Source: Pirellulimonas nuda
GTDB taxonomy: Bacteria; Planctomycetota; Planctomycetia; Pirellulales; Lacipirellulaceae
Assembly: GCF_007750855.1 (NCBI RefSeq)
Contig: NZ_CP036291.1
Coordinates: 4,526,001 to 4,590,000 of the forward strand
Direction of reading: 5' to 3'
DNA length: 64,000 nucleotides
In this document: positions 1-27,825 of the stretch, piece after piece
Position numbering within the stretch: the stretch's first letter is position 1
Layout: each line of letters begins with the position of its first letter
Translations under genes and position numbers: made by a program
The notes under the pieces: model-generated
Database searches by the model: none
What the model was told of the DNA's origin: nothing
What the model saw: the letters and a program-made list of their open reading frames with translations, nothing else

Positions 1-726
1 CCGCGGGAACGCGACCACGCGCAAGCGGAACAGGCGTTTGCGGTTGGCGCCGCCGATCTGAGCGGCGACGTCGGCGTCGGCGCCGACGTAACGGTAGTCT
101 AGCACCCGCGCGCTCGTGCCCCGCCCCGCCCCGTCGAGCATCGTCAGCAACGCGCCGTTGAAGTAGCCCTCGGTCTGCGGCAGGGTGACTTCTACGGGCA
201 GGCCCGAGACGGGGTCGGCCTCGAGGGCCACCACGTGCGACGGATCGGCCACGCCGGCCGTGGGCGCGGTGAGATCTTCTACGAACAGGTCGACGATCTG
301 CCCCGCGGTCCGCCCCAGCGGCGTGCCGCTGGCCACGGCGCCGGCGTACTGGGCGCTGACGAGCGTCTCGGCCGGCAGGGCGGCGTACACCCGGCCCACG
401 AAGCCGTCGGTGCCGTACATGTCGCGCAGCAGGCTGTGGTAGCGGATCACCGAGTAGGGGTTGCCCGTGTCGCGCAGCAGTTGCCGCACGGCCCGGTCGG
501 TGAGGTCGCCCGGCTGCAGGCTGGAGCGGCTCTTCTGTGCCACTACCTTGGCGCCGCTGCGGTACTGCGAGCTGACCACCAGGAACGCCGTGCCGACCAG
601 CAGGAACAGCGTCAGCAGGCTCAGCACCACCAGCAGCAGCACGCCGCGACGCCGCTCGCGCAGCGCACGCCGGCGACGATTGGCGACCGCGCGGCGACGC
701 GTGGTGTGGAGTTCATTCAATGACAT
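1..726 (-). CDS. PilX/GspK-like pilus assembly protein, C-terminus beyond the window
   Basis: The reading frame is open from an ATG at 726 to the window edge, 242 codons, so the C-terminus is missing. The start is preceded by GGAAGGA seven bases upstream. The N-terminus is very arginine-rich (residues 10-27) and is followed by one hydrophobic helix beginning GVLLLVVLSLL at about residue 28, then a long soluble part. This layout, without a FTLVE prepilin box, resembles PilX/GspK-type minor components. It is the last visible gene of the pseudopilin series on the same strand, 133 bases after the preceding gene, which supports a role in the pilus or secretion machine. The family assignment is by architecture and context only. 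Confidence 0.6.
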   Translation of the reverse strand, partial: MSLNELHTTRRRAVANRRRRALRERRRGVLLLVVLSLLTLFLLVGTAFLVVSSQYRSGAKVVAQKSRSSLQPGDLTDRAVRQLLRDTGNPYSVIRYHSLLRDMYGTDGFVGRVYAALPAETLVSAQYAGAVASGTPLGRTAGQIVDLFVEDLTAPTAGVADPSHVVALEADPVSGLPVEVTLPQTEGYFNGALLTMLDGAGRGTSARVLDYRYVGADADVAAQIGGANRKRLFRLRVVAFPR

Positions 727-859
727 AGTTCCGTCCTTCCAAAGTTAGAGCGCCTGGCCCGCGCTCCGCTGTGCTTCGCGAGGCACCAGGCGTTAGGTCG
801 AAGTCGTTAGCATCAGAAACGTGCTAACGACTAATCCCTAACACCTGACACCTAGCTCC

Positions 860-2293
860 TCAGTCGCCCCACGCCGTGCCCGACGTGAGACGCATGGTTC
901 TTGTGTGTACCCCGACCACGCCGGGGAAGATGCCCACGCGGAGGTCGTTGGAGAGTTGGTTTGTGTTGGTCAGGTCCAACACGGCGCCCGGAAACCACGG
1001 CCAGTCGGGGCCGCGGAGCGAGACGATGCGTTGGGTCAGTGGGTTGGGCGTCAGGCCGCCGATTGGCGTGTTGCTGGGGACCTCGACCGCGGTCACCCGG
1101 TACCAGGCCAGGAAGACGGCCGGCGCGGCGGGGGTGCTGCCGGGGCGGGGGCCGACCAGCATCACGTACTGCCCCTTGCGGAGCTGCAGGAAGGGGTCTT
1201 CGGCGGGCTCGCCCGACACCGAGGTGGGCGTCCGCTCGAGCAGCAGCTCGCCGCCGCCGACCCCGCGGCTGATCACCCGGGCCGAGACGACCCGCTCCGA
1301 GGCCCGCAGCAGGCTCACGTCTCCCAACTGGCGCCCGCGGAACACCACGGCCGAGACCTCGTAGTCGAAGGCCGTGGGGTCGAGCGCCAGCGCGTTGCGC
1401 TCAACATTGGACGAGGGCGCCACGCTCAGCATCCAAGAAAACTCTCCCTTGGACTGGCGCTGCACGGCGACGCCGCCGAACACCGAGAGCCGCTGCTGGA
1501 TGGGCCGGGCCGGGTCGTCCGGCACCTCCAGCGCGAGGTCGTCCGAAGAGATGCAGATCGACTCCGCCTGGCGTTTGCCCAGCGGGTAGTACTCGAAGAA
1601 CGGCGCCGTGTTGTCGTTGTCGAGGGTCGCGATGCTCATCCGATGGACCGGCCAAGTGAGCACGCTGGTGGTCCACGGCGCCCACGCCGCAGAGGAGAAC
1701 CCCGCACCACGCGCCGTGATCGGGATGTTGCTCGCCTGGATGTTGGAAGACATGTTCGTGCCGGAGAACAGGGCCGCGTTGGCGACCGCCAAGGGATCGA
1801 TGACGTAGGCCGAACCGTTTAGGTGGTTCAACTGCGCCGGCGTCAGCCCCCTGGCGAGGTCGATCTGCAGCCCGTAGTCGAACGGCAACGCGAACCGGGT
1901 GCGCCACTTGGTGGCGATCTGCCCCGCGGGAAGCGGGGTGGCGCCGGAGGTGGGACGGCTCAACGTGCTGTCGCCGCGCTCGCACGCCACCCAGTTGCTG
2001 GGATTAAGCCAGCCACGCGCCGCCGCGTCCGCCAGCGCCGCCTGGGCCACCGCGTCTGCGCTGTCGTAGGTGTCGCCGGCCTGCACGTAGTGGCCGCCGA
2101 CCGGGAAGATGGCCGCCACGCCCAGCAGGCCCAGCGCCAGGATGCCCATCGAGATGAGCACCTCGACCAAGCTAATGCCAGCGCGGGAGGACGCAAAAGG
2201 TGTCAGGAACCTTTTCGGACGAGATTTGCACGCGGCTTCTAGCGCCTTCCCACCGAAAAGGTTCCTGACACCTTTTTTAAGTCTCGTTTGCAT
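860..2293 (-). CDS. PilV/GspI-like type IV pseudopilin
   Basis: A 477-residue protein with a prepilin methylation box G|ISLVEVLISMG at about residues 39-49 followed by the hydrophobic pilin helix. The large C-terminal region is probably a globular head. It would be cleaved after the glycine by prepilin peptidase and placed in the inner-membrane pseudopilus. The start at 2293 has GGAGG eleven bases upstream and lies one base after the stop of the preceding gene, so the two are probably translationally coupled. The roughly 39-residue leader is far longer than usual and is encoded largely by a palindromic repeat (KGVRNLFG and its mirror PKRFLTPF), so the leader seems to be repeat DNA that entered the gene. 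Confidence 0.8.
   Translation of the reverse strand: MQTRLKKGVRNLFGGKALEAACKSRPKRFLTPFASSRAGISLVEVLISMGILALGLLGVAAIFPVGGHYVQAGDTYDSADAVAQAALADAAARGWLNPSNWVACERGDSTLSRPTSGATPLPAGQIATKWRTRFALPFDYGLQIDLARGLTPAQLNHLNGSAYVIDPLAVANAALFSGTNMSSNIQASNIPITARGAGFSSAAWAPWTTSVLTWPVHRMSIATLDNDNTAPFFEYYPLGKRQAESICISSDDLALEVPDDPARPIQQRLSVFGGVAVQRQSKGEFSWMLSVAPSSNVERNALALDPTAFDYEVSAVVFRGRQLGDVSLLRASERVVSARVISRGVGGGELLLERTPTSVSGEPAEDPFLQLRKGQYVMLVGPRPGSTPAAPAVFLAWYRVTAVEVPSNTPIGGLTPNPLTQRIVSLRGPDWPWFPGAVLDLTNTNQLSNDLRVGIFPGVVGVHTRTMRLTSGTAWGD
2195..2276. repeat. Palindromic REP-like element inside a pseudopilin leader
   Basis: Two perfect 24-base arms at 2195-2218 and 2253-2276 (core aaaaggtgtcaggaacc) in inverted orientation with a 34-base spacer. 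The element lies wholly within the leader codons of the pseudopilin gene that starts at 2293 and keeps the frame open. Confidence 0.9.
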
Positions 2294-2294
2294 C

Positions 2295-3788
2295 TTATCG
2301 GCCTCCTGCTTTGGCCGACTCTCGCACCAGGGCGCGGGCGGCGTTGATCTCTGTCGCGCGGCGGGCGAGGGGGCTGAGGCTGCTGTTGATGGCCGTGGGG
2401 TTCACCGCGGCGTTGGGGACGGTGGTCACCGCGCCGGTCTGGGCGCCGATCACGACCCACTCGCTGTTGAGGTTCAGCCAGTTGATCTTGGCCTTCGCGC
2501 TCGCCAGGTCCTGCTCGGTGCCGGTGAACGCGGTAAAGTCGACCCACGGCGCCGGGCTGTTCTCACGCATGCCGATCAGCAGGTGCACGTTGTCGGTGAC
2601 CGGCTCGGAGAAGGGGTTGGCCGAGTAGTTGTTGATGGGCACGCCACTCGTGTCCCACGCCGAGGCGCCCAGGTCGTAGGTCACGCGCTCAACGGAGCCC
2701 TCGGGAGAGAACATCAGGTAAACGGGGTTGTTGTTCTCGATGGGGTTGTTGACCTGCGAGGCCGTGCCCGTGTCGAGGTCGGGCTTGGCAAACTCGCCAT
2801 TGGTGACCGTCGCGTTGGTCGCGTTGCCAGCGATGCGGACCGTGAACCCCGAGGCCCGCAGGTCGATCGCGGCGCCGGTGGGGAGCTGGTAGGGCTGGTT
2901 GGACGTGGGGGCGGGCTGGCGGAGCAGCTTGAACCGCAGCGGCTCGGTCCAATAGGGATACTCGAGAGGGGGTAACGATGGGTTAGGGGGCACAGAAACC
3001 CGGACGCCTTGGTTGTCGTAGACAAAGCTGAACGCCGAGTGGATGTTTGTTGGCCCGCGGGCCAATAAGGTTCCGTCGGGAAAGCCGGCGGTAGCAGGAT
3101 AGCGCCCGCGGCTGTCGAGCCCCCCTTCGTTTCCATTGTCATCGATAAAGACAAACTCGGCGCCGTCGATGACGATCACGTCCCCCGGGCCGAAGAACGA
3201 GTCGGGCATGATCTCGTACGAAACGCCAGACGGCAGATTCGCAGCGCCGCTGGACTCGAGCCGCACGAACTGGATGCGGACTTGGTAGGGCTGGTTCGCG
3301 TAGAAGGCGCCCGAGTTGTCTACGTCCAACGCAATCCGCACACGTGCCGCGTCATCAAAGCCGCTGTAGGGCGCCGGCTGCTGGACGTAGTACATCTCTA
3401 GGCACACGGCGGAGTCTTCCAGCCGGCCCGTGTCTTGCGAGAGCTTCTTGAGGGCCACGCCGAACGGCCGGCCCGTTTCGATGGCCCGGCTCTGGGCGCC
3501 GGCGAGGAACGTGTTGACGCCGCGTGCCGCCTCGCGGATCACGCGTTCATCGCCGGGGGGCGAGAGCAGCGGGATCGCCGCGGCGACCAGCGTGGTGATG
3601 ATCACCATCACCACCAGCAGCTCGACCAGCGTCATTCCGCCTGCGGCGGAGGGGGCGAGCGGCGAGCGGCGAGGGGCGAGGGATGAGAAAGGGGACTGGC
3701 TCGCCTTTTCTCGCGCGCAGCCCGAACCCTCGACCATTGCCTGGGCGAAAACGTGCCTGTCCCTTTTTTCGTTGCGGCGGAGTTGCAT
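2295..3788 (-). CDS. Type IV pseudopilin with long repeat-derived leader
   Basis: From the ATG at 3788 the protein is 497 residues, with a prepilin box [18 protein letters not shown] at about residues 51-66 and a large extracytoplasmic domain. I chose 3788 because it sits one base beyond the stop of the upstream pseudopilin (3790), the same spacing as the next gene pair; a start at 3860 would overlap that gene. The leader of about 51 residues is encoded by an imperfect inverted repeat (3686-3770) plus a short repeat encoding SSLAPRRSPLAP. It belongs to a run of three near-contiguous pseudopilin genes and is probably a minor component of the pseudopilus. Confidence 0.75.
   Translation of the reverse strand: MQLRRNEKRDRHVFAQAMVEGSGCAREKASQSPFSSLAPRRSPLAPSAAGGMTLVELLVVMVIITTLVAAAIPLLSPPGDERVIREAARGVNTFLAGAQSRAIETGRPFGVALKKLSQDTGRLEDSAVCLEMYYVQQPAPYSGFDDAARVRIALDVDNSGAFYANQPYQVRIQFVRLESSGAANLPSGVSYEIMPDSFFGPGDVIVIDGAEFVFIDDNGNEGGLDSRGRYPATAGFPDGTLLARGPTNIHSAFSFVYDNQGVRVSVPPNPSLPPLEYPYWTEPLRFKLLRQPAPTSNQPYQLPTGAAIDLRASGFTVRIAGNATNATVTNGEFAKPDLDTGTASQVNNPIENNNPVYLMFSPEGSVERVTYDLGASAWDTSGVPINNYSANPFSEPVTDNVHLLIGMRENSPAPWVDFTAFTGTEQDLASAKAKINWLNLNSEWVVIGAQTGAVTTVPNAAVNPTAINSSLSPLARRATEINAARALVRESAKAGGR
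3686..3770. repeat. Imperfect inverted repeat in a pseudopilin leader
   Basis: The arm gaaaggggactggc at 3687-3700 and the arm gcctgtccctttttt at 3755-3769 are imperfectly complementary, with further pairing of cgccttttctcgc against gggcgaaaacg inside. The ends resemble the aaaggggac ends that flank the REP-associated transposase at 27079-27825. Confidence 0.6.
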
Positions 3789-3789
3789 G

Positions 3790-4953
3790 TTACTCGCGGA
3801 TACGGGTCGCGATGAGGTGGTTGGTGAGGTTGTCGGCGGCGCCGCTACCGAGCGATTCACCGGCCAGGTTGCGGTTGGAGTAGTCGCCGAACGGCTTCAG
3901 GTAGTAGAGGCTGTTGGCGAGGCTGAACGGCGCCAACGATGCACGCCACGGGACGTCGGCGTCCGCGGGCGCCGACAGGCCCAGCACCTCGTCCCCCCCG
4001 CCGGAGACGATCAGCGGCAGCAGCCGGTACGCGTACGGGTCGCGGCGGAAGATGTCGAGCGGGTCGTGGTCGGCGGCCGCCTTCTCGCGCCAGTCGTTGT
4101 CGTTCAAGAAGTTCCTGGCGTTCATTTGCACGTCCGACTGGTAGGAGGGCGCCCAGCGCAAGAACGCGATGGGCTTGCCCCAGCCGTCCAGGAACTCGGG
4201 GGCGCCGTCGCCGTCGGTGTCGCCGACCTCGCTCTCTTTGAACAGCGATGGCGCCTCGCCGTCGGCGGTGGCGTTCATGATGAACAGGTAAAAGCACTCG
4301 GCCGATTGATTGGCGAGGATCTCGTCCTTCGTGTTGGTCATGCCCGTCTTGGCGTTCGTGGCGACGTTGAGCTGCCTCAAACGGCGACGGTAGAGCGAGT
4401 TGAGGCTGGGAGCGCGTTCCAGATAAACCGGGGCGGGGTAGTTCGCCGCAGTAATGTCCGCCAGCGCCACGTCGCTCCAGCGGTCGGGCATCTCCATCAG
4501 CATCAGCTCTCGCAGGCCGTACAGCCGCACGTCGGCCAGCGCCTGGCCGCGTTGGCGTCGCTGCGCCGCGCTGAACGTTGTGTCCAACGCGCCCTCAACA
4601 CTCTGATTCAGCTCGACCCGGCGGTTGGCGTAGCCGTCGATGTGCTCCACCATCAACGCGTGCAGCCGAGTGATGACCGACTGCGTCCGCGCCCGCCGAG
4701 CCGTCTCCCCCGCCGCGGCGCCAACGCCCAGCATCAGCGTCGCCAAGATGCTGATGATCGCGATAACAATCAACAACTCCACCAGCGTCACGGCCCTGCG
4801 GGCGGGGGATTGTCCGCTGGCGCGGACGGGGATTGTCCGCTGGCGCGGACGGGGTTTGTCCGCTGACGCGGACGGGGTTGGGGGGACGCGCAGGGCGATG
4901 CGGTAGCTCGGCTGAGCTGCGAGATCGTTCGTGTTTTGGAGAGTAGGTTTCAT
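3790..4953 (-). CDS. Type IV pseudopilin, GspG/H-like N-terminus
   Basis: A 387-residue protein with the pilin helix VTLVELLIVIAIISILATL starting at about residue 56. The residue before the predicted cleavage site is alanine rather than the usual glycine. Near residue 245 is a DTDGDGAPEFLDGWG stretch, an aspartate-rich loop like the calcium-binding loops of major pseudopilins. The leader is unusually long and about 23 of its codons come from three 23-base tandem repeats. It is the first gene of the tightly packed pseudopilin triplet; 156 bases of repeat-rich DNA separate it from the GspG-like gene upstream. Confidence 0.75.
   Translation of the reverse strand: MKPTLQNTNDLAAQPSYRIALRVPPTPSASADKPRPRQRTIPVRASGQSPARRAVTLVELLIVIAIISILATLMLGVGAAAGETARRARTQSVITRLHALMVEHIDGYANRRVELNQSVEGALDTTFSAAQRRQRGQALADVRLYGLRELMLMEMPDRWSDVALADITAANYPAPVYLERAPSLNSLYRRRLRQLNVATNAKTGMTNTKDEILANQSAECFYLFIMNATADGEAPSLFKESEVGDTDGDGAPEFLDGWGKPIAFLRWAPSYQSDVQMNARNFLNDNDWREKAAADHDPLDIFRRDPYAYRLLPLIVSGGGDEVLGLSAPADADVPWRASLAPFSLANSLYYLKPFGDYSNRNLAGESLGSGAADNLTNHLIATRIRE
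4805..4873. repeat. Three 23-bp tandem repeats in a pseudopilin leader
   Basis: Copies at 4805-4827, 4828-4850 and 4851-4873. Each contains the palindrome gtccgctggcgcggac; the third copy differs at two positions. A single unit would shift the frame, but three units total 69 bases, 23 codons, so the gene stays in frame. Confidence 0.9.
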
Positions 4954-5009
4954 TGCTTGTTTCGCAGCTTCAATCGCCCCCTCTGCAACGCTTGCGCGTC
5001 CGTCCCCCT

Positions 5010-5109
5010 AGCCCCATCCGCCGCAGGCGGATAACCCCCAGCCCGCAGGGCTAACCCCCGTTCGCCGCAGGCGAACACCCCCCTCCGCCGCAGGCGGACC
5101 GCAGGCGGA
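5010..5109. repeat. Cluster of short palindromes between pseudopilin genes
   Basis: Successive small hairpins such as atccgccgcaggcggat, agcccgcagggct, gttcgccgcaggcgaac and tccgccgcaggcgga lie head to tail, separated by runs of cccc, ending at the stop codon of the GspG-like gene. Confidence 0.85.
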
Positions 5110-6186
5110 CTAAGGTTGGCTGTCCTCCAGCGTGCTGTCGGTGAAGTTGGTGAGCGTGTCGGCTAGGTATTCGGAGGCGGCGAAGGGGCCGGCTGGGTAG
5201 AGCAGCGGGGACACGCCGCTGGCGTTGACTTGTGGCAGGACGCCCCAGCGGTGGTCGATGCCGCAGTGCAGGATCTGGAACTTGCCGGCGTTGGCGAAGA
5301 CCGAGTTCTGGATGTTCGCGGTGGGGTTCGTGCGTTTGATGGCGTACACGTTCTGAAGCTGCGACCAATCGGAGGCCTGGCCGGAGAACGCCACGGCCGG
5401 GCCGGCCGCCGGCGGGTCGTTCTGCAGCGTCAGGCCGCTCACCTGCGGCGCGGCCATGTAGACCAGCGGCTGGGGCGACCCGGGCGCCAGGTAGCTCCAG
5501 AAGTTGATGCGGCGTGAACGCCCATTGAACGTTGGGTCGGGGTACACCAGGTAGCGGTTGTCGGTCTGGTCGAAGTAGCCGTCGGGGTCGCGCGGCGCGA
5601 GCTGCTCTGGCTTGATGCCGAGCGCCCAGCGGCGGTTCTCGATCGGGTCGGCCTGGGCCATGGGAGAGTTCAGGTTGGCCGAGTCGATGTACGACGGGCC
5701 CCCCTCGCCCGAGATGGGGAAGTTCACGTCGCTGCTGAACCCGCCGAGCCAGAACACCACCGCCTCGGAGCCGGTCATGCCGCCGGGCAGGTTCGGGTTG
5801 CCCGAGGTCGCCACGCCGGCCAGGGCGCGGACCAGGCCGTCCGGCTCGCGGCTGCGGGGGAAACGCTTGGCCAGGTAGCGGCGCAGCTCGTTGTACACGG
5901 CGGTCTCGTCGACCGGCCCGGCGCCGTCCGTCTGGCAGTTGGGGGGGTAGACGCCGCCGGAGTTGTTCTTGTCGTCTTCAATGGCCTGGTCGAAGCTGTT
6001 GATCTCTGCCTTGATGCGCGTGCGTGCGGCGGCCTTCATGGCGTTCACGGCGGCCACGGTGATCAGGCCGGCGAGGATGCCGATGATGGTGATCACCACC
6101 AGCAGCTCGACCAACGTAAAGGCTGAGTGATGAGTGCTGAGTGATGAATGACGCGCAAGCGGGGCGCGGGCTGGTTGGTTGTTCAT
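5110..6186 (-). CDS. GspG-like type II/IV major pseudopilin
   Basis: From the ATG at 6186 (AAGGACG about nine bases upstream) the protein is 358 residues. The prepilin box [19 protein letters not shown] begins at about residue 25, and the following AINSFDQAIEDDKNNSGGVYPP-type stretch is typical of GspG-like proteins, where an alpha helix leads into the globular head. The leader contains HSSLSTHHSA, a low-complexity sequence, and the residue before the cleavage site is alanine. It lies between pilC and the pseudopilin triplet, and is therefore the best candidate for the main pseudopilus subunit. An in-frame ATG at 6270 is possible but has no better ribosome site. Confidence 0.8.
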   Translation of the reverse strand: MNNQPARAPLARHSSLSTHHSAFTLVELLVVITIIGILAGLITVAAVNAMKAAARTRIKAEINSFDQAIEDDKNNSGGVYPPNCQTDGAGPVDETAVYNELRRYLAKRFPRSREPDGLVRALAGVATSGNPNLPGGMTGSEAVVFWLGGFSSDVNFPISGEGGPSYIDSANLNSPMAQADPIENRRWALGIKPEQLAPRDPDGYFDQTDNRYLVYPDPTFNGRSRRINFWSYLAPGSPQPLVYMAAPQVSGLTLQNDPPAAGPAVAFSGQASDWSQLQNVYAIKRTNPTANIQNSVFANAGKFQILHCGIDHRWGVLPQVNASGVSPLLYPAGPFAASEYLADTLTNFTDSTLEDSQP

Positions 6187-6290
6187 GATTGGCGTCCTTG
6201 AAATCAATTCACTCATAGAAGGTTTGTCCGTCGCAACACAGCCGCTCAACGCCTGCGCGTCATTCATCACTCCTCATTCATCACTCATCG
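6121..6290. repeat. Inverted repeat bracketing the start of the GspG-like gene
   Basis: The arm at about 6121-6157 (gctgagtgatgagtgctgag onward) is nearly complementary to the arm at 6254-6290 (cattcatcactcctcattc inside it). The start codon at 6186 and its ribosome site lie in the loop; the left arm encodes part of the leader peptide. Confidence 0.75.
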
Positions 6291-6292
6291 CT

Positions 6293-7621
6293 CTAAGTAA
6301 GTCCTTCAATCAGCTTCACCAGCGGCAGGAACAGCGCGATGACGATGAAGCCGACGGCGCCGCCGAGGAAGATGATCAGCAGCGGCTCCATCAGCTTGGT
6401 GAGGCTGTCGGTGAGCACGGCGACTTCTTCGTCGTACACGTCGGCCACCTTGTAGAGCATGGTGTCGAGCTCGCCGGTCTCTTCGCCGACGTCGACCATG
6501 TTCACCACGATGTCGTCCAGGATGCGGGCCTTCTGCAGCACCTTCAGCAGGTACAGCAGGATGCCGATCCCCGGGATCACGAACGCCCAGAAGAAGGCGG
6601 CGACCGGGTGGAACGAGATGAACGAGTTTTCTTTCATCGGCTTGGCGATGGATTCGCCCTCGCGGATCGCCTCGCTGATCTTGCTGTAGAGCCGCTCGAA
6701 GATGGCGTTGCCGGAGGTGTCGCGGGTGATTTGCAGCGCCTCGAGGATGGGGACGCCAGAGGAGACCAGCGTGCCCAGGGTCCGCGCGGTGCGGGCCAGC
6801 GTGTTCTTCTCGATCAGGGCGCCGAAGATGGGGACCTTGAGCGTGAACTGGTCCCAGCCGATGCGCCCGTGCTTGAACTTGCGGATCATCTTGATGAACA
6901 GCCAGATCGACACCGGGATCATCGGGATCAGGTACCAGTAGTGCACCACCCACTCGCTGGTGCCGACCAGCATGAGCGTCATGTTGGGGAGCTCGAGGTC
7001 GAACTCGTCGAAGATCTTCTTAAACTCCGGGACGATCTTCAGCATGATGAACGTGAGGATGCCGACGGCGACGGAGACCACCACCACCGGGTAGACCATG
7101 GCGCCCTTGACCTTGCGCTTGAGCGATTCGCTCCGCTCCTGGAAGTCGGCCAGACGCTGGAGGATGAGCTCGAGGGCGCCGCCCGCCTCGCCCGCCTTGA
7201 TCATGTTCACGTACAGGCGGTTGAAGCACTTGGGGCTCTTGGCCATCGCTTCGCTGAGGGTGTCGCCCCCCTCGATCGCTTCGCAGGTGTCTTCGAGCGA
7301 GTACTTCAGCCGGCCCGGCTTGGCCTGGCTGGCGAGGATCCGCAGGCTGCGGAGGATCGGCAGGCCCGCGTCTTGCAGGATCGAGAGCTGCCGGGTGAAG
7401 GCCGTGAGGTCGCGGCTCTTCACGCCGCCGAACACGAAGCCGCGCTTCTTCTTGACGGGGCCGGCCTCGGCCTTCTTGCGGGCCTTCTTCACCGTGATCT
7501 TGGTGACGAAGTAGCCCATCTGACGGATCGTGTTCTGGGCTTCTTCCTCGCTCGCCGCATCGATCACGTCTTCGATCTCGGCGCCGGTGGCGTCCATCGC
7601 CTTGAATTGAAATGTCGGCAT
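6293..7621 (-). CDS. pilC: PilC/GspF-family inner-membrane assembly protein
   Basis: 442 residues with two T2SSF domains. The first has the typical LTAFTRQLSILQDAGLPILR (about residues 70-90) and the second FTLKVPIFGALIEKNTLAR (about 257-275). Membrane helices are seen near residues 174-195, 217-245, 320-340 and 415-435. The end LMEPLLIIFLGGAVGFIV is diagnostic. Between the domains there is an additional hydrophobic stretch (HPVAAFFWAFVIPGIGILLY) beyond the usual family pattern. It forms the membrane platform that couples the PilB and PilT ATPases to pilin polymerisation. It is followed by the GspG-like gene, an order common in pilus loci. Confidence 0.93.
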   Translation of the reverse strand: MPTFQFKAMDATGAEIEDVIDAASEEEAQNTIRQMGYFVTKITVKKARKKAEAGPVKKKRGFVFGGVKSRDLTAFTRQLSILQDAGLPILRSLRILASQAKPGRLKYSLEDTCEAIEGGDTLSEAMAKSPKCFNRLYVNMIKAGEAGGALELILQRLADFQERSESLKRKVKGAMVYPVVVVSVAVGILTFIMLKIVPEFKKIFDEFDLELPNMTLMLVGTSEWVVHYWYLIPMIPVSIWLFIKMIRKFKHGRIGWDQFTLKVPIFGALIEKNTLARTARTLGTLVSSGVPILEALQITRDTSGNAIFERLYSKISEAIREGESIAKPMKENSFISFHPVAAFFWAFVIPGIGILLYLLKVLQKARILDDIVVNMVDVGEETGELDTMLYKVADVYDEEVAVLTDSLTKLMEPLLIIFLGGAVGFIVIALFLPLVKLIEGLT

Positions 7622-7659
7622 GGTTGTCTGGTGGGTTACTTAGTGAACCACAGAGCGGT

Positions 7660-7835
7660 CAACGAATGGGACGCGGATTGTCGCGGATGAAACGGATTAC
7701 GACGGATCAAGCAGGGCACAAACGCTGTGATGAATTTAAACGACTTGAAACGCCGTACAGCGGGGGCGACTCAAGGATCCTTGGATCTTTCTCAATCCGA
7801 TTTATCCGCGATGATCCGCGTTCTATTTTCTGATG
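7660..7835. repeat. Dispersed ATCCGCG-type repeat between pilB and pilC
   Basis: The gap 7622-7908 holds gacgcggattgtcgcggatg near 7668 and, inverted, gatttatccgcgatgatccg near 7800. A related short copy, tccgcgtaatccgcgacgat, lies at about 9719-9738 in the gap between pilT and pilB. No gene is visible in either gap. Confidence 0.6.
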
Positions 7836-7908
7836 TCTTCGAGTGACGCAGTTGATTCAGTTGCTCAAACGTTTCACGGTTTCGGCAGGCGGGGCCTGCC
7901 CTACTCTC

Positions 7909-9636
<1,728 letters not shown>

Positions 9637-9761
9637 GTTGGAAACTCCGGAACGCTAAGAATTAGTTTGGGGGCAAAGAATCGGACGCGGGTTACGACCG
9701 TGTTTCATCGTGATGGATCCGCGTAATCCGCGACGATCCGCGTCCCGTTCGTTGCTAAGGG

Positions 9762-10892
9762 TTAACTCTCGTACGGGTCTGCGCTGGCGTCGAAGGCGCT
9801 CTTCTCTTCTTCGGCGAAGCGTTTGGCCAAGTCCTCGACGCTGTTGCACTTGCCCAGCGCGTCTTCTTTGGTCACCAGGCCTTCTTTCCAGGCCTTGAAG
9901 ATGTGGTCGTCCAGAAGCTGCATGCCGTGCTTCTGGCCGGTTTGGATGGACGACGTGATGCGGAAGATCTTGTTCTCGCGGATCAGGTTCGCGATGCCCG
10001 GGGTGACGATGAGCGTCTCGAACGCCGCGACGCGGCCGCCGCCGATCTTCTTGAGCAGTTGCTGGGAGAGGATGCCGATGATCGCCGACGCGAGCTGGGT
10101 GCGGATCTGGTCCTGCTGGTGTGTGGGGAAGACGTCGATGATGCGGTTGATGGTGCCCGCGGCGCTGGAGGTGTGCAGCGTGCCGAACACGATGTGGCCC
10201 GTTTCCGCGGCGGTGATGGCGGCCTCGATGGTCTCCAGGTCGCGCATCTCGCCCACCAGGATCACGTCGGGGTCTTGCCGCAGGGCGCGGCGGATGGCCT
10301 CGGAGAAGCTGGTGACGTCTGTCCCCACCTCACGCTGGTTGATCGTGCTCTTCTTGTGGTTGTGCTGGAACTCGATCGGGTCTTCGATCGTGATGATGTG
10401 GTGGTCGACGTTCTCGTTGAGGTAGTCGACCATCGCCGCCAGCGAGGTCGACTTGCCCGAACCGGTCGGTCCCGTGACCAGCACCAGGCCGCGGGGCCGC
10501 ATGATGAGCTTCTTGAACACCTCGGGGAGCTTGAGCTGGTCCATCGTCCACAGGTCGACCGGGATCTGCCGGAGGACCATGGCCACCTTGCCCCGCTGCC
10601 GGAAGATGGACACACGGAAGCGGGCGGCGTCGCCGAACGCGAAGCCGAAGTCTGCGCTGCCGGTCTCTTGGAACTCTTGTTGGCAGCGGTCGGGCGTGAT
10701 GCTCTTCATCAACGCCATCGTGTCTTGGTCGTCCAGCACCTTGGTCTTGAGCTTCTGCATCCGCCCGCTGATGCGGAACACCGGGGGCTGCCCCACGGTG
10801 ATGTGGATGTCGCTCGCCCCCTGCTTGATCGCAGCGGCAAGCAGCTTGTCGATCAGGATCGTGCCGGTGTTGGCCGGGGATTCGGTGCTCAT
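9762..10892 (-). CDS. pilT: PilT twitching-motility retraction ATPase
   Basis: 376 residues, close to the usual PilT length. It starts ILIDKLLAAAIKQGASDIHI and has Walker A GPTGSGKSTSLAAMVDYLN at about residue 142, the Walker B region DPDVILVGEMRDLETIEAA at about 212 and the His box HIVFGTLHTSSAAGTINRI. The PilT mark FETLIVTPGIANLIRENK lies near 305. It lacks the zinc CxxC pairs and MshEN domain of PilB, as expected. Its role is ATP-driven pilus disassembly, so the locus probably encodes a retractable pilus rather than only a secretion pseudopilus. A candidate promoter lies about 340 bases upstream. Confidence 0.95.
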   Translation of the reverse strand: MSTESPANTGTILIDKLLAAAIKQGASDIHITVGQPPVFRISGRMQKLKTKVLDDQDTMALMKSITPDRCQQEFQETGSADFGFAFGDAARFRVSIFRQRGKVAMVLRQIPVDLWTMDQLKLPEVFKKLIMRPRGLVLVTGPTGSGKSTSLAAMVDYLNENVDHHIITIEDPIEFQHNHKKSTINQREVGTDVTSFSEAIRRALRQDPDVILVGEMRDLETIEAAITAAETGHIVFGTLHTSSAAGTINRIIDVFPTHQQDQIRTQLASAIIGILSQQLLKKIGGGRVAAFETLIVTPGIANLIRENKIFRITSSIQTGQKHGMQLLDDHIFKAWKEGLVTKEDALGKCNSVEDLAKRFAEEEKSAFDASADPYES

Positions 10893-23769: not shown

Positions 23770-24143
23770 CGTTGCGTTACGCTGCTGCCGCAACAAATCA
23801 AGGACGGCACGCCGTGCAGTGCACACGCGAACAGATATTGGTCAAGCGGGGGTTGTGGGAGATTCTAAGGATGGGTGTCCCCGGGAGATTCTAAGGATGG
23901 GTGTCCCCGGGGGGCTCTAAGGATGGGTGTCCCCGGGAGGCTCCCCGGGAGGCTGCGGCCGAAGACCGAAGACCCGTCCGTACTCCCTCCGGGCAAAGGA
24001 AGCTGGAAGCCCCCTGGCATCGTGAAGGCGCAATAGTCACATCTTCGATCCTGAACCCCTCGGGCCGGGCCCCACGATCCGGCTCGCGAATTCAGCAGCG
24101 AATTTCAAAACACACGAACTAAGAACGAAAATAGATACAAACC
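23770..24143. repeat. Intergenic region with three 26-bp tandem repeats
   Basis: At 23859-23936 the unit gagattctaaggatgggtgt occurs with a period of 26 bases; the third copy has gggctctaagg in its place. The 22 bases before and into the first copy (23842-23863, caagcgggggttgtggga) are identical to 27843-27864 next to the REP-associated transposase. The rest of the gap, 23937-24143, holds no gene. Confidence 0.85.
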
Positions 24144-27078: not shown

Positions 27079-27825
27079 GAAAAGGGGACATTCTACTTAT
27101 TGACGGCGGCCTAGGCGCCGACTAGCCTGCACGGATGCCCCGCACCTCCCGCGCCTCGGCCGGCAACGTCTGCTACCACGTGCTGAACCGTGGCAACGCG
27201 CGGATGACCGTCTTCCACAAAGACGAAGACTACGCGGCGTTCCTCAAGCTGCTCGGCGAGGCCAACGAGCGGGTTTCGATGCGGCTGCTGGCCTTCTGCC
27301 TGATGCCCAATCACTTTCATTTGGTCGCCTGGCCGCGACGCGACGGCGACCTCAGCCGCTGGATGCAGTGGCTGCTCACCGCCCACGTGCGCCGCTACCA
27401 CCGCCACTACCGTTCGTCGGGCCACGTCTGGCAGGGGCGGTTCAAGGCGTTCCCGGTCGAGTCCGACGACCACCTGCTGACGGTCATGCGCTACGTCGAG
27501 CGCAACCCGATTGCGGCCAAGACAATCCCAATCCGCAAGGCGCAGAACTGGCCCTGGTCGTCGGCGGGCCGGCCCCCGAGGGGGACCGAACCGGTAGCGC
27601 TCGATCCGGGCCCGGCGCCCCGGGGAGCGTCGTGGCCCGAATGGGTGAATCAGCCGCTCGACGAGCAGGAGCTGGCGGAGCTGCAAATCAGCCTCGAGCG
27701 GGGCCGCCCGTACGGCGGCCCCGATTGGCAGCGCTCGACCGCCGGCAAGCTGGGGCTAGAGTCAACGCTCCGCCCCCGCGGCAGGCCCAGGAAGAAAACG
27801 CAGTAAAGTAGAATGTCCCCTTTTC
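27079..27825. mobile_element. REP-associated transposase unit with perfect 20-bp inverted ends
   Basis: The 20 bases at 27079-27098 (core aaaaggggacattctactt) are repeated in perfect inverted orientation at 27806-27825. The unit contains only the tyrosine transposase gene 27135-27806; the right arm begins at the last base of the coding region. It resembles a RAYT gene flanked by its own REP half-sites. Confidence 0.85.
27135..27806 (+). CDS. REP-associated tyrosine transposase (Y1_Tnp, RAYT)
   Basis: 223 residues. The HUH nuclease motif is HFH in CLMPNHFHLVAWP at about residues 55-67, and the catalytic tyrosine is in RYVERNPI at about 122. HVWQGRFKAFPVESDDHLL near 98 is typical of the IS200-like RAYT group. 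Such proteins nick single-stranded REP hairpins and are thought to spread them. It is flanked by a perfect inverted repeat, and related aaaggggac palindromes occur elsewhere in the window, consistent with action in trans. Length and domains look intact. Confidence 0.93.
   Translation: MPRTSRASAGNVCYHVLNRGNARMTVFHKDEDYAAFLKLLGEANERVSMRLLAFCLMPNHFHLVAWPRRDGDLSRWMQWLLTAHVRRYHRHYRSSGHVWQGRFKAFPVESDDHLLTVMRYVERNPIAAKTIPIRKAQNWPWSSAGRPPRGTEPVALDPGPAPRGASWPEWVNQPLDEQELAELQISLERGRPYGGPDWQRSTAGKLGLESTLRPRGRPRKKTQ

Follow-up and report, generated by a model that had tools for sequence, protein, structure and literature searches.

Short repeat elements usually lie outside genes, since insertion breaks genes. 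Cyanobacterial STRR heptamers are tandem 7-nt units found mostly between genes, RPE elements sit inside mature proteins, and REP/BIME elements located in operons have been proposed to tune translation or decay. Here, repeat elements were found in the leaders of four consecutive pseudopilin genes of Pirellulimonas nuda, where they are probably translated in frame, and in the same operon of related genomes. The genes lie in a 64,000-nt stretch of DNA (contig NZ_CP036291.1, positions 4,526,001 to 4,590,000; hereafter the window, whose own numbering is used) from a source genome (G000) of one contig and 6.6 Mb.

The closest described systems, compared here on excerpts of the cited papers, share several of these features. 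In Xanthomonas and Nostoc, G-rich heptamers (GGGAATC, GGGGA(C/T)T) display the G-rich strand in sense orientation after a stop codon and in antisense orientation before the next open reading frame, form 70 convergent pairs in Xcc and 75 in Xac, and are under-represented in coding regions (PMC4692102). The present elements resemble them in their 7-nt units, co-directional junctions and fixed strand polarity, but comprise many unit families, many of them without G-runs, and stand in frame in putatively translated prepilin leaders; they behave like the Xanthomonas/Nostoc repeats and, G-runs being absent from so many units, are not assigned to that family. The TAACTGA heptamers of Beggiatoaceae (PMC4679880), tandem 7-nt units found mostly between genes, are alike by description. 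REP elements, usually present in more than 100 copies per genome (PMC2817692), have been reported inside genes, also near N-termini (PMC3733652). Among enterobacterial repeats, RU-1, RU-2 and RU-3 (ERIC/YPAL-type units; Delihas 2007) occur in reading frames, one such unit contributing to a signal peptide (PMC2759123). As small inverted-repeat elements fused in frame they are a direct precedent for two cases described below (L424 and L417), the likeness being one of description, not of sequence, but prepilin leaders and a recurrent hotspot in a single operon set the present elements apart. Rickettsia RPE (PMC2229807) are stem-loop elements that likewise form in-frame fusions with protein genes, again likened by description and not by sequence; the clear in-frame heptamer copies of the present genomes cluster instead in leader or signal N-termini. 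In-frame fusion of the kind displayed by RPE and RU coding repeats was found for the leader elements; no link to triplex-type repeats (PMC4666352) emerged. Earlier publications therefore already cover junction repeats of 7 nt, intragenic REPs, RPEs and a repeat unit in a signal peptide. A literature search of titles and abstract beginnings, with many journals outside its coverage, returned nothing on repeats in planctomycete pilin leaders, and no precedent was found there for prepilin leaders being occupied again and again within one operon in many genomes.

The minus strand of the window encoded a gspF-like gene (6293-7621; Pfam T2SSF, 3.4e-58) followed by four genes, P4 (5110-6267), P3 (3790-4953), P2 (2295-3788) and P1 (860-2293). 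The N_methyl cleavage/methylation motif scored above the cut-off in P2 (9.7e-5), P3 (6.1e-6) and P4 (1.8e-6, scored on a shorter form starting at 6186), and that of P1 reached 20.1 bits by hmmscan, below the cut-off of 21.2, and 24.6 bits, above it, in the genome search. P1 to P4 are thus predicted to be type IV prepilin-like (pseudopilin) genes whose leaders are cleaved by prepilin peptidase. Leaders of 39 (P1, 2177-2293), 51 (P2, 3636-3788), 54 (P3, 4792-4953) and 49 aa (P4, 6121-6267) compared with a median of 14 aa in the other pilin-like genes of the same genome, in agreement with an earlier reading of the sequence alone (the sequence-only reading), which had called them unusually long. 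P4 was read from the ATG at 6267, 25 nt past the gspF stop codon, while an alternative ATG at 6186 would leave a leader of 22 aa. The ATG of P1 and that of P2 lie 1 nt past the stop codons of P2 and P3, respectively, so that their elements can only be inside the reading frame. The P1 leader contained no other start codon, and that of P3 no further in-frame ATG, GTG or TTG.

All four leaders carried a repeat between start codon and prepilin cleavage site, each a different one, as the sequence-only reading had proposed. The perfect 24-bp palindrome claimed for P1 was found as an exact 24-nt inverted repeat, a REP doublet (2195-2276) with arms at 2195-2218 and 2253-2276 separated by 34 nt, each arm containing AAAAGGTGTCAGGAACCTTTT, a near-palindrome of 21 bp. 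P2 displayed the claimed imperfect palindrome, a REP-like doublet read from the sequence (3688-3769; arms 3688-3710 and 3747-3769), together with a plus-strand 7-bp-period array of GGGGCGA type (3651-3683) that adjoins the cleavage site and had gone unlisted. The three 23-bp tandem repeats of P3 lay within its leader (4805-4877, plus strand) and shared a palindromic core, GTCCGCTGGCGCGGAC, with few copies elsewhere (19 matches at up to one mismatch, 6 exact of which 3 were the P3 units themselves, against 10 for the control). Upstream of the P3 start, a palindromic array of CCGCCGCAGGCGG type (5012-5106, plus strand) contained a 30-nt arm (5022-5051) that pairs with 4793-4822 at 83% complementarity. 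At the P4 junction, a 46-nt inverted repeat consisted of a 3' arm with a 7-bp period of TGAGTGA type (6124-6169, plus strand), inside the leader, and a 5' arm (6242-6287, minus strand), 85% complementary to it, that contains the ATG at 6267. The claim of a single arm in the P4 leader therefore holds if translation starts at 6186; from 6267, the 3' arm and the inner 5' arm are both in the leader and the repeat straddles the start codon. The P3 and P4 elements thus place one arm around or before the ATG and the other in the leader.

RNA-fold z-scores (against 30 dinucleotide shuffles) were -9.0 for P4, -5.8 for P1, -5.3 for P3 and +0.5 for P2. P2 is the weakest case, with an ordinary fold and a doublet that forms no clear multicopy family (14 genome matches at up to one mismatch, against 12 for the reversed control). 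Under the array criterion given below, the 64-kb window harbored two 7-bp arrays only, those of P2 and P4. A single mobile family behind all four leaders was discarded, the P1 REP, the P3 23-mer and the heptamer elements being unrelated by inspection and the P2 doublet belonging to no clear family. A known structured RNA was likewise discarded, positions 1-10000 giving zero Rfam matches at gathering scores. The untranslated junction upstream of gspF also carried an inverted repeat (7671-7821; arms near 7671-7706 and 7793-7821, recognized by eye without a statistic), and the junction after P1 a 35-nt one (778-856), only 74% complementary.

The P1 element, a REP-like doublet, has a candidate RAYT. 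Its arm occurred in 19 genome copies at up to 3 mismatches (reversed control, 0), further opposed pairs stood at 5270289/5270324 and 6014082/6014128, and exact P1-type copies were found on both sides of a Y1_Tnp gene (3.1e-16; L243, 1219-1869). Near-palindromy, inverted pairs and a flanked Y1_Tnp gene make it similar to REP/BIME with RAYT (PMC2817692, PMC3733652, in the excerpts used), but its 19 copies are short of the high numbers of RAYT-associated REPs, and it stands in frame in a leader. By eye, neither a GTAG nor a CGTC tag was seen in the arm or its immediate flank, and P1 was not placed in the GTAG/CGTC super-families. The gene beside another REP cluster (L242, 1539-2057), considered as a transposase, was AIG2-like instead.

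Heptamer arrays were concentrated in the pilin leaders of related genomes. Orthologous loci were collected with gspF as the query, whose relatives in the sequence search were planctomycetes, from the best 80 of 547 confirmed relatives; pilins were found by motif in 70 of the 81 loci, and a 21-nt stretch with 12 of 14 positions matching at lag 7 was called an array. Across the 212 pilin genes of the 81 loci, arrays made up 12.3% of the bases in leaders, 0.01% of those in mature parts and 0.5% of all others. They occurred in 66 of 212 leaders, in 30 loci, and in none of the 212 mature windows, with an open frame of up to 150 nt ahead of the cleavage site. Period 7 was specific, since lags 4-6 and 8-13 accounted for at most 0.32% of leader bases and lag 14, a multiple of 7, for 11.4%. 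Array leaders were more frequent in loci whose gspF had at least 74% identity (42 of 71) than in other loci (22 of 137), and median leader length was 49 aa with an array and 20.5 aa without (start assigned in 43 of 56 and 96 of 132 genes). Arms displayed a polarity, being purine-rich in 26 of 31 arrays far from the cleavage site and in 6 of 39 near it, where most were pyrimidine-rich. Leaders of the orthologous pilins carry different inverted 7-bp repeats in frame (e.g., NAECGM...HSAIRNP and MFDV...STIKHQTSNI). The 66 leaders of the 30 loci contained 61 distinct canonical 7-mers, related variants being counted apart. The commonest units (AATCCGC, AATGATG, AATGCGG, AAACATC) have, by inspection, no run of three G, a composition that ruled out G-quadruplexes as a common principle.

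The repeats appeared to be translated. At -30 to -90, ahead of the cleavage site of 67 array genes, stop codons were far rarer in frame (4/1340 codons) than in the other frames (39/1340 and 35/1340; Fisher 2.7e-9); genes without arrays showed a weaker depletion (38/2900 in frame and 193/5800 in other frames). ATGA overlaps, with the ATG displaced by -1 relative to the preceding stop, were found in 16 of 56 array genes and 23 of 132 others. This stop-codon asymmetry and the abutment of stop and ATG indicate that the repeats sit inside leaders that are, by prediction, translated.

The elements of the gspE-gspF-pilin operon are probably intercistronic elements of its junctions that are translated in frame within disposable prepilin leaders, with insertion and tolerance as the chief cause. 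At least two kinds of element, the RAYT-type REP doublet and the inverted repeat with arms made of 7-bp repeats, would insert at or be copied to operon junctions. Where the next gene is far enough away, the element would stay untranslated. Where reading frames abut, the stretch from the ATG to the prepilin cleavage site would be the only spare DNA, and an element there would be in frame and translated; the abutment of the pilin reading frames, which leaves no other room, could thus explain why the repeats are translated within leaders. Prepilin peptidase would then discard the element with the leader, of which only the last few residues before cleavage need keeping, so that a whole hairpin element could be translated in an abutting operon at little cost. 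Genes with a removed N-terminus would best accept in-frame elements, and prepilin leaders would be their visible host. Turnover is fast, orthologous junctions mostly holding different units and one unit often standing at several junctions of an operon. Identity, position, frame, recurrence, concentration in the operon and arm polarity are shown by the sequences; cleavage, hairpins in the cell, and the precedence of insertion and tolerance over a selected regulatory role, are presumed.

Tolerance alone does not explain the distribution. The sequence-only reading had taken leader codons as a tolerated landing site for repeat DNA; this part stood insofar as the repeats lie inside putatively translated leaders and the clear in-frame heptamer N-termini belong to pilins or are signal-peptide-like, while a cleaved leader alone proved insufficient. 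The repeats that it would place across the other pilin-like leaders of the genome were not found: 89 such sites (motif matches in the stretches around 94 N_methyl matches) displayed no hairpin at z<-3 and three at z<-2, and the surrounding stretches L157-L241 contained no heptamer array. Repeats as a property of all prepilin leaders are thus rejected for the source genome, and tolerance alone fails. P1 to P4 are distinguished by their internal place in an operon with decorated junctions, untranslated junctions included.

Array density along the loci peaked at operon junctions, including untranslated ones. In loci of at least 9 kb, arrays covered 13.1% of leaders, 2.5% of intergenic DNA, 0.02% of other coding DNA and 0.3% of the first 150 nt of other genes. 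Background intergenic density was 0.09, 0.36 and 0.28% in three genomes, with almost none in coding DNA, 0.20% in the source genome (operon masked) and 0.32% in a fourth genome; the background of G003 was taken from two contigs (380 kb) rather than from spaced samples. In three relatives, arrays marked 12 of 15 operon junctions and 7 of 200 other co-directional junctions (p 1.4e-12), or 10 of 13 (p 1.2e-10) after dropping two operon first junctions longer than the 300-nt background limit; with the source genome, the counts were 14 of 20 and 13 of 330. Such a hotspot relative to other co-directional junctions is not predicted by weak selection on leaders alone. Insertion and tolerance account for position and frame; the hotspot itself points either to selection of a junction hairpin or to local copying, two causes that the present data do not separate.

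Several observations weigh against translated, tolerated insertions as the explanation. Leader density (12-13%) is far above the intergenic background of 0.09-0.36%, which hints at selection or local copying, and the zones compared in the junction counts differ, extending from the previous stop to the cleavage site in the operon and over the gap together with 180 nt of the following gene in the background. Fold z was above -2 in 35 of 65 array leaders, and a reverse-complement partner was absent from the window searched in 36 of 66 at score at least 12 and in 29 at score at least 10. A codon-usage gene caller (the simple script that provided the gene calls outside named genes) left the leaders outside genes and labelled the repeats of the window intergenic, as expected of repeat DNA and equally of untranslated DNA. 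In some genes, among them the L053 pilins, L408 and L418, a TTG or GTG at or beyond the element could serve as the start, so single translation cases in relatives may be wrong. A P1-type REP also stood in frame at an uncleaved place in two paralogous polyketide-synthase-like genes (L246, near 512; L247, near 489); a further in-frame copy lay in the tail of a PEP-CTERM-like protein, so that REPs do not strictly keep to leaders. Names of gspE, polyketide synthase, PEP-CTERM, GspJ-like and GspK-like genes, as well as signal peptides, were judged by eye.

Selection for the hairpins themselves, with a junction mRNA hairpin that tunes translation or decay of pilin transcripts and a leader that is merely its host, is rather unlikely as the main cause; the junction hotspot speaks for it. 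Strong folds (z<-3) were found in 24 of 65 array leaders, 9 of 146 leaders without arrays and 1 of 211 mature windows, untranslated junctions also carry elements, and elements of different classes have come to lie at the same sites; a regulatory role of the leader repeats may be supposed. However, a partner arm at score at least 12 was present in only 30 of 66 array leaders, 146 of 212 leaders had no array, the more distant loci mostly lacked them, and units are not conserved. The 66 array-bearing leaders provide a natural series for asking whether junction hairpins act.

Local copying, in which an element arises once and spreads between junctions by recombination or gene conversion of similar pilin N-terminal sequences, is unlikely to be the main cause. 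Units were shared (at most one difference) in 26 of 57 pairs within an operon, 62 of 556 pairs of the same gene across genomes and 11 of 168 comparisons of operon units with background arrays of the same genome, and all four pilin leaders of L053 (genome G046) carry alignable copies of one element of about 90 nt. Yet this element is dispersed through its genome (at least 84 BLAST matches on both strands, with 40 of 143 candidates scored), and the four junctions of the window hold four different elements. The turnover is consistent with independent gains and, in many cases, later copying inside the operon or genome.

That the upstream starts are wrong, the repeats lying in untranslated spacers and the leaders being short, is improbable. 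The short median of other pilin-like leaders, the possible misannotation of many N-terminal intragenic REPs (PMC3733652, in excerpt), the exclusion of leaders by the gene caller and the TTG or GTG after some elements would speak for it, but the frame-specific depletion of stops and the ATGA overlaps speak against it, and in P1, P3, L417, L424 and L409 the element is followed by no start codon. Low-complexity sequence arising by chance in GC-rich DNA can be practically dismissed: short two-copy matches are common in the window and the P2 doublet is the least secure, but for P1 and the heptamer arrays the controls refute it, only period 7 and its multiple 14 being enriched, more than 1000-fold over the mature part of the same genes, and the reversed P1 REP finding no match.

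The dispersed element of L053's genome was also found in exported proteins. Its search returned 30 loci and 23 distinct sites, of which 22 were classified (one short locus was skipped): 17 between co-directional genes, 3 between convergent genes and 2 overlapping a called gene. It stood in frame at the N-terminus at 9 of the 22 sites, namely six pilin or pilin-like genes (the four pilins, a DUF1559 pilin at L408 and, by eye, a pilin-like gene at L418), L417, L424 and L409. The trypsin/PDZ protease of L417 and the PQQ propeller of L424 displayed signal-peptide-like N-termini containing the element, whose 3' arm encodes the hydrophobic core FIIHHSSFII, with no start codon between this arm and the mature part. 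L409, without a Pfam family, has a hydrophobic N-terminus with no later start codon before it. Among orthologues of L424 (loci L466-L484), all 12 inspected, those of the 19 with a leader-aligning motif, lacked an array and had what looked by eye like ordinary signal peptides. In L053's genome, the repeat thus seems to have become part of putative signal peptides of exported proteins, and these cases suggest a simple route from repeat DNA to a functional protein segment. An ATG follows the element at L432 (SufBD-like neighbor), L412 and L434, and both TTG and GTG follow it at L419 (DnaB gene), where the start is ambiguous. Selection of a heptamer variant of the L053 leaders to avoid stops was dropped as an idea, the variant also occurring outside reading frames.

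In the genomes of L030, L036 and L038, copies in the open frame of called genes were those of pilins (30 loci read, 91 matches). A pilin was the only clear in-frame case among the loci displayed for L031's genome, with an ATG after the element in L442, L444 and L459; a further search gave 34 matches, with 30 loci covered. Clear in-frame N-terminal heptamer copies in relatives thus appear to belong to pilins or signal-peptide-like N-termini, with cleavage predicted and several copies ambiguous. Tentatively, dispersed inverted repeats could form a standing supply of exchangeable cleavable N-termini, providing start codon and leader at junctions and being taken up repeatedly as prepilin leaders and even as Sec signal peptides; if so, repeat DNA would have rewritten part of the leader and signal-peptide repertoire of such planctomycete genomes. 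Long, odd-looking leaders such as NAECGM...HSAIRNP consist of repeat DNA, and annotators should assign their starts with care.

Minor observations concerned neighboring genes and further REP-like sequences. Beside the pilins of L339 (genome of L038), a gene with GILLLVVLSLLTLFLM..., GspK-like by eye, has a repeat-like leader, VVSRESLVVSFRKQRATRDSRLTTRNS. The P2 leader of L387 (relative G017) contains the REP-like peptide repeats KKVPDPALL and KKVSDPALL, which suggests that REP-type elements recur also in P2 leaders of other genomes. By eye, the P1-type REP encodes KVPDTF within the apparent KS-AT linker of the L246 and L247 genes, and KRFLTPF in the C-terminal tail of the PEP-CTERM-like protein (L245, near 498), possibly another processed end. 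The source genome harbored 15 Y1_Tnp matches, two of them (L014, L015) broken by a TAG codon. In the window, a Y1_Tnp (RAYT-like) gene (27135-27806) is flanked by a separate inverted repeat of its own, AAAAGGGGACATTCTACTT / AAGTAGAATGTCCCCTTTT (27080-27824), a second REP-like family that differs from the P1 doublet. A tandem 26-bp repeat at 23857-23939 comprised 3.2 copies with 92% matches.

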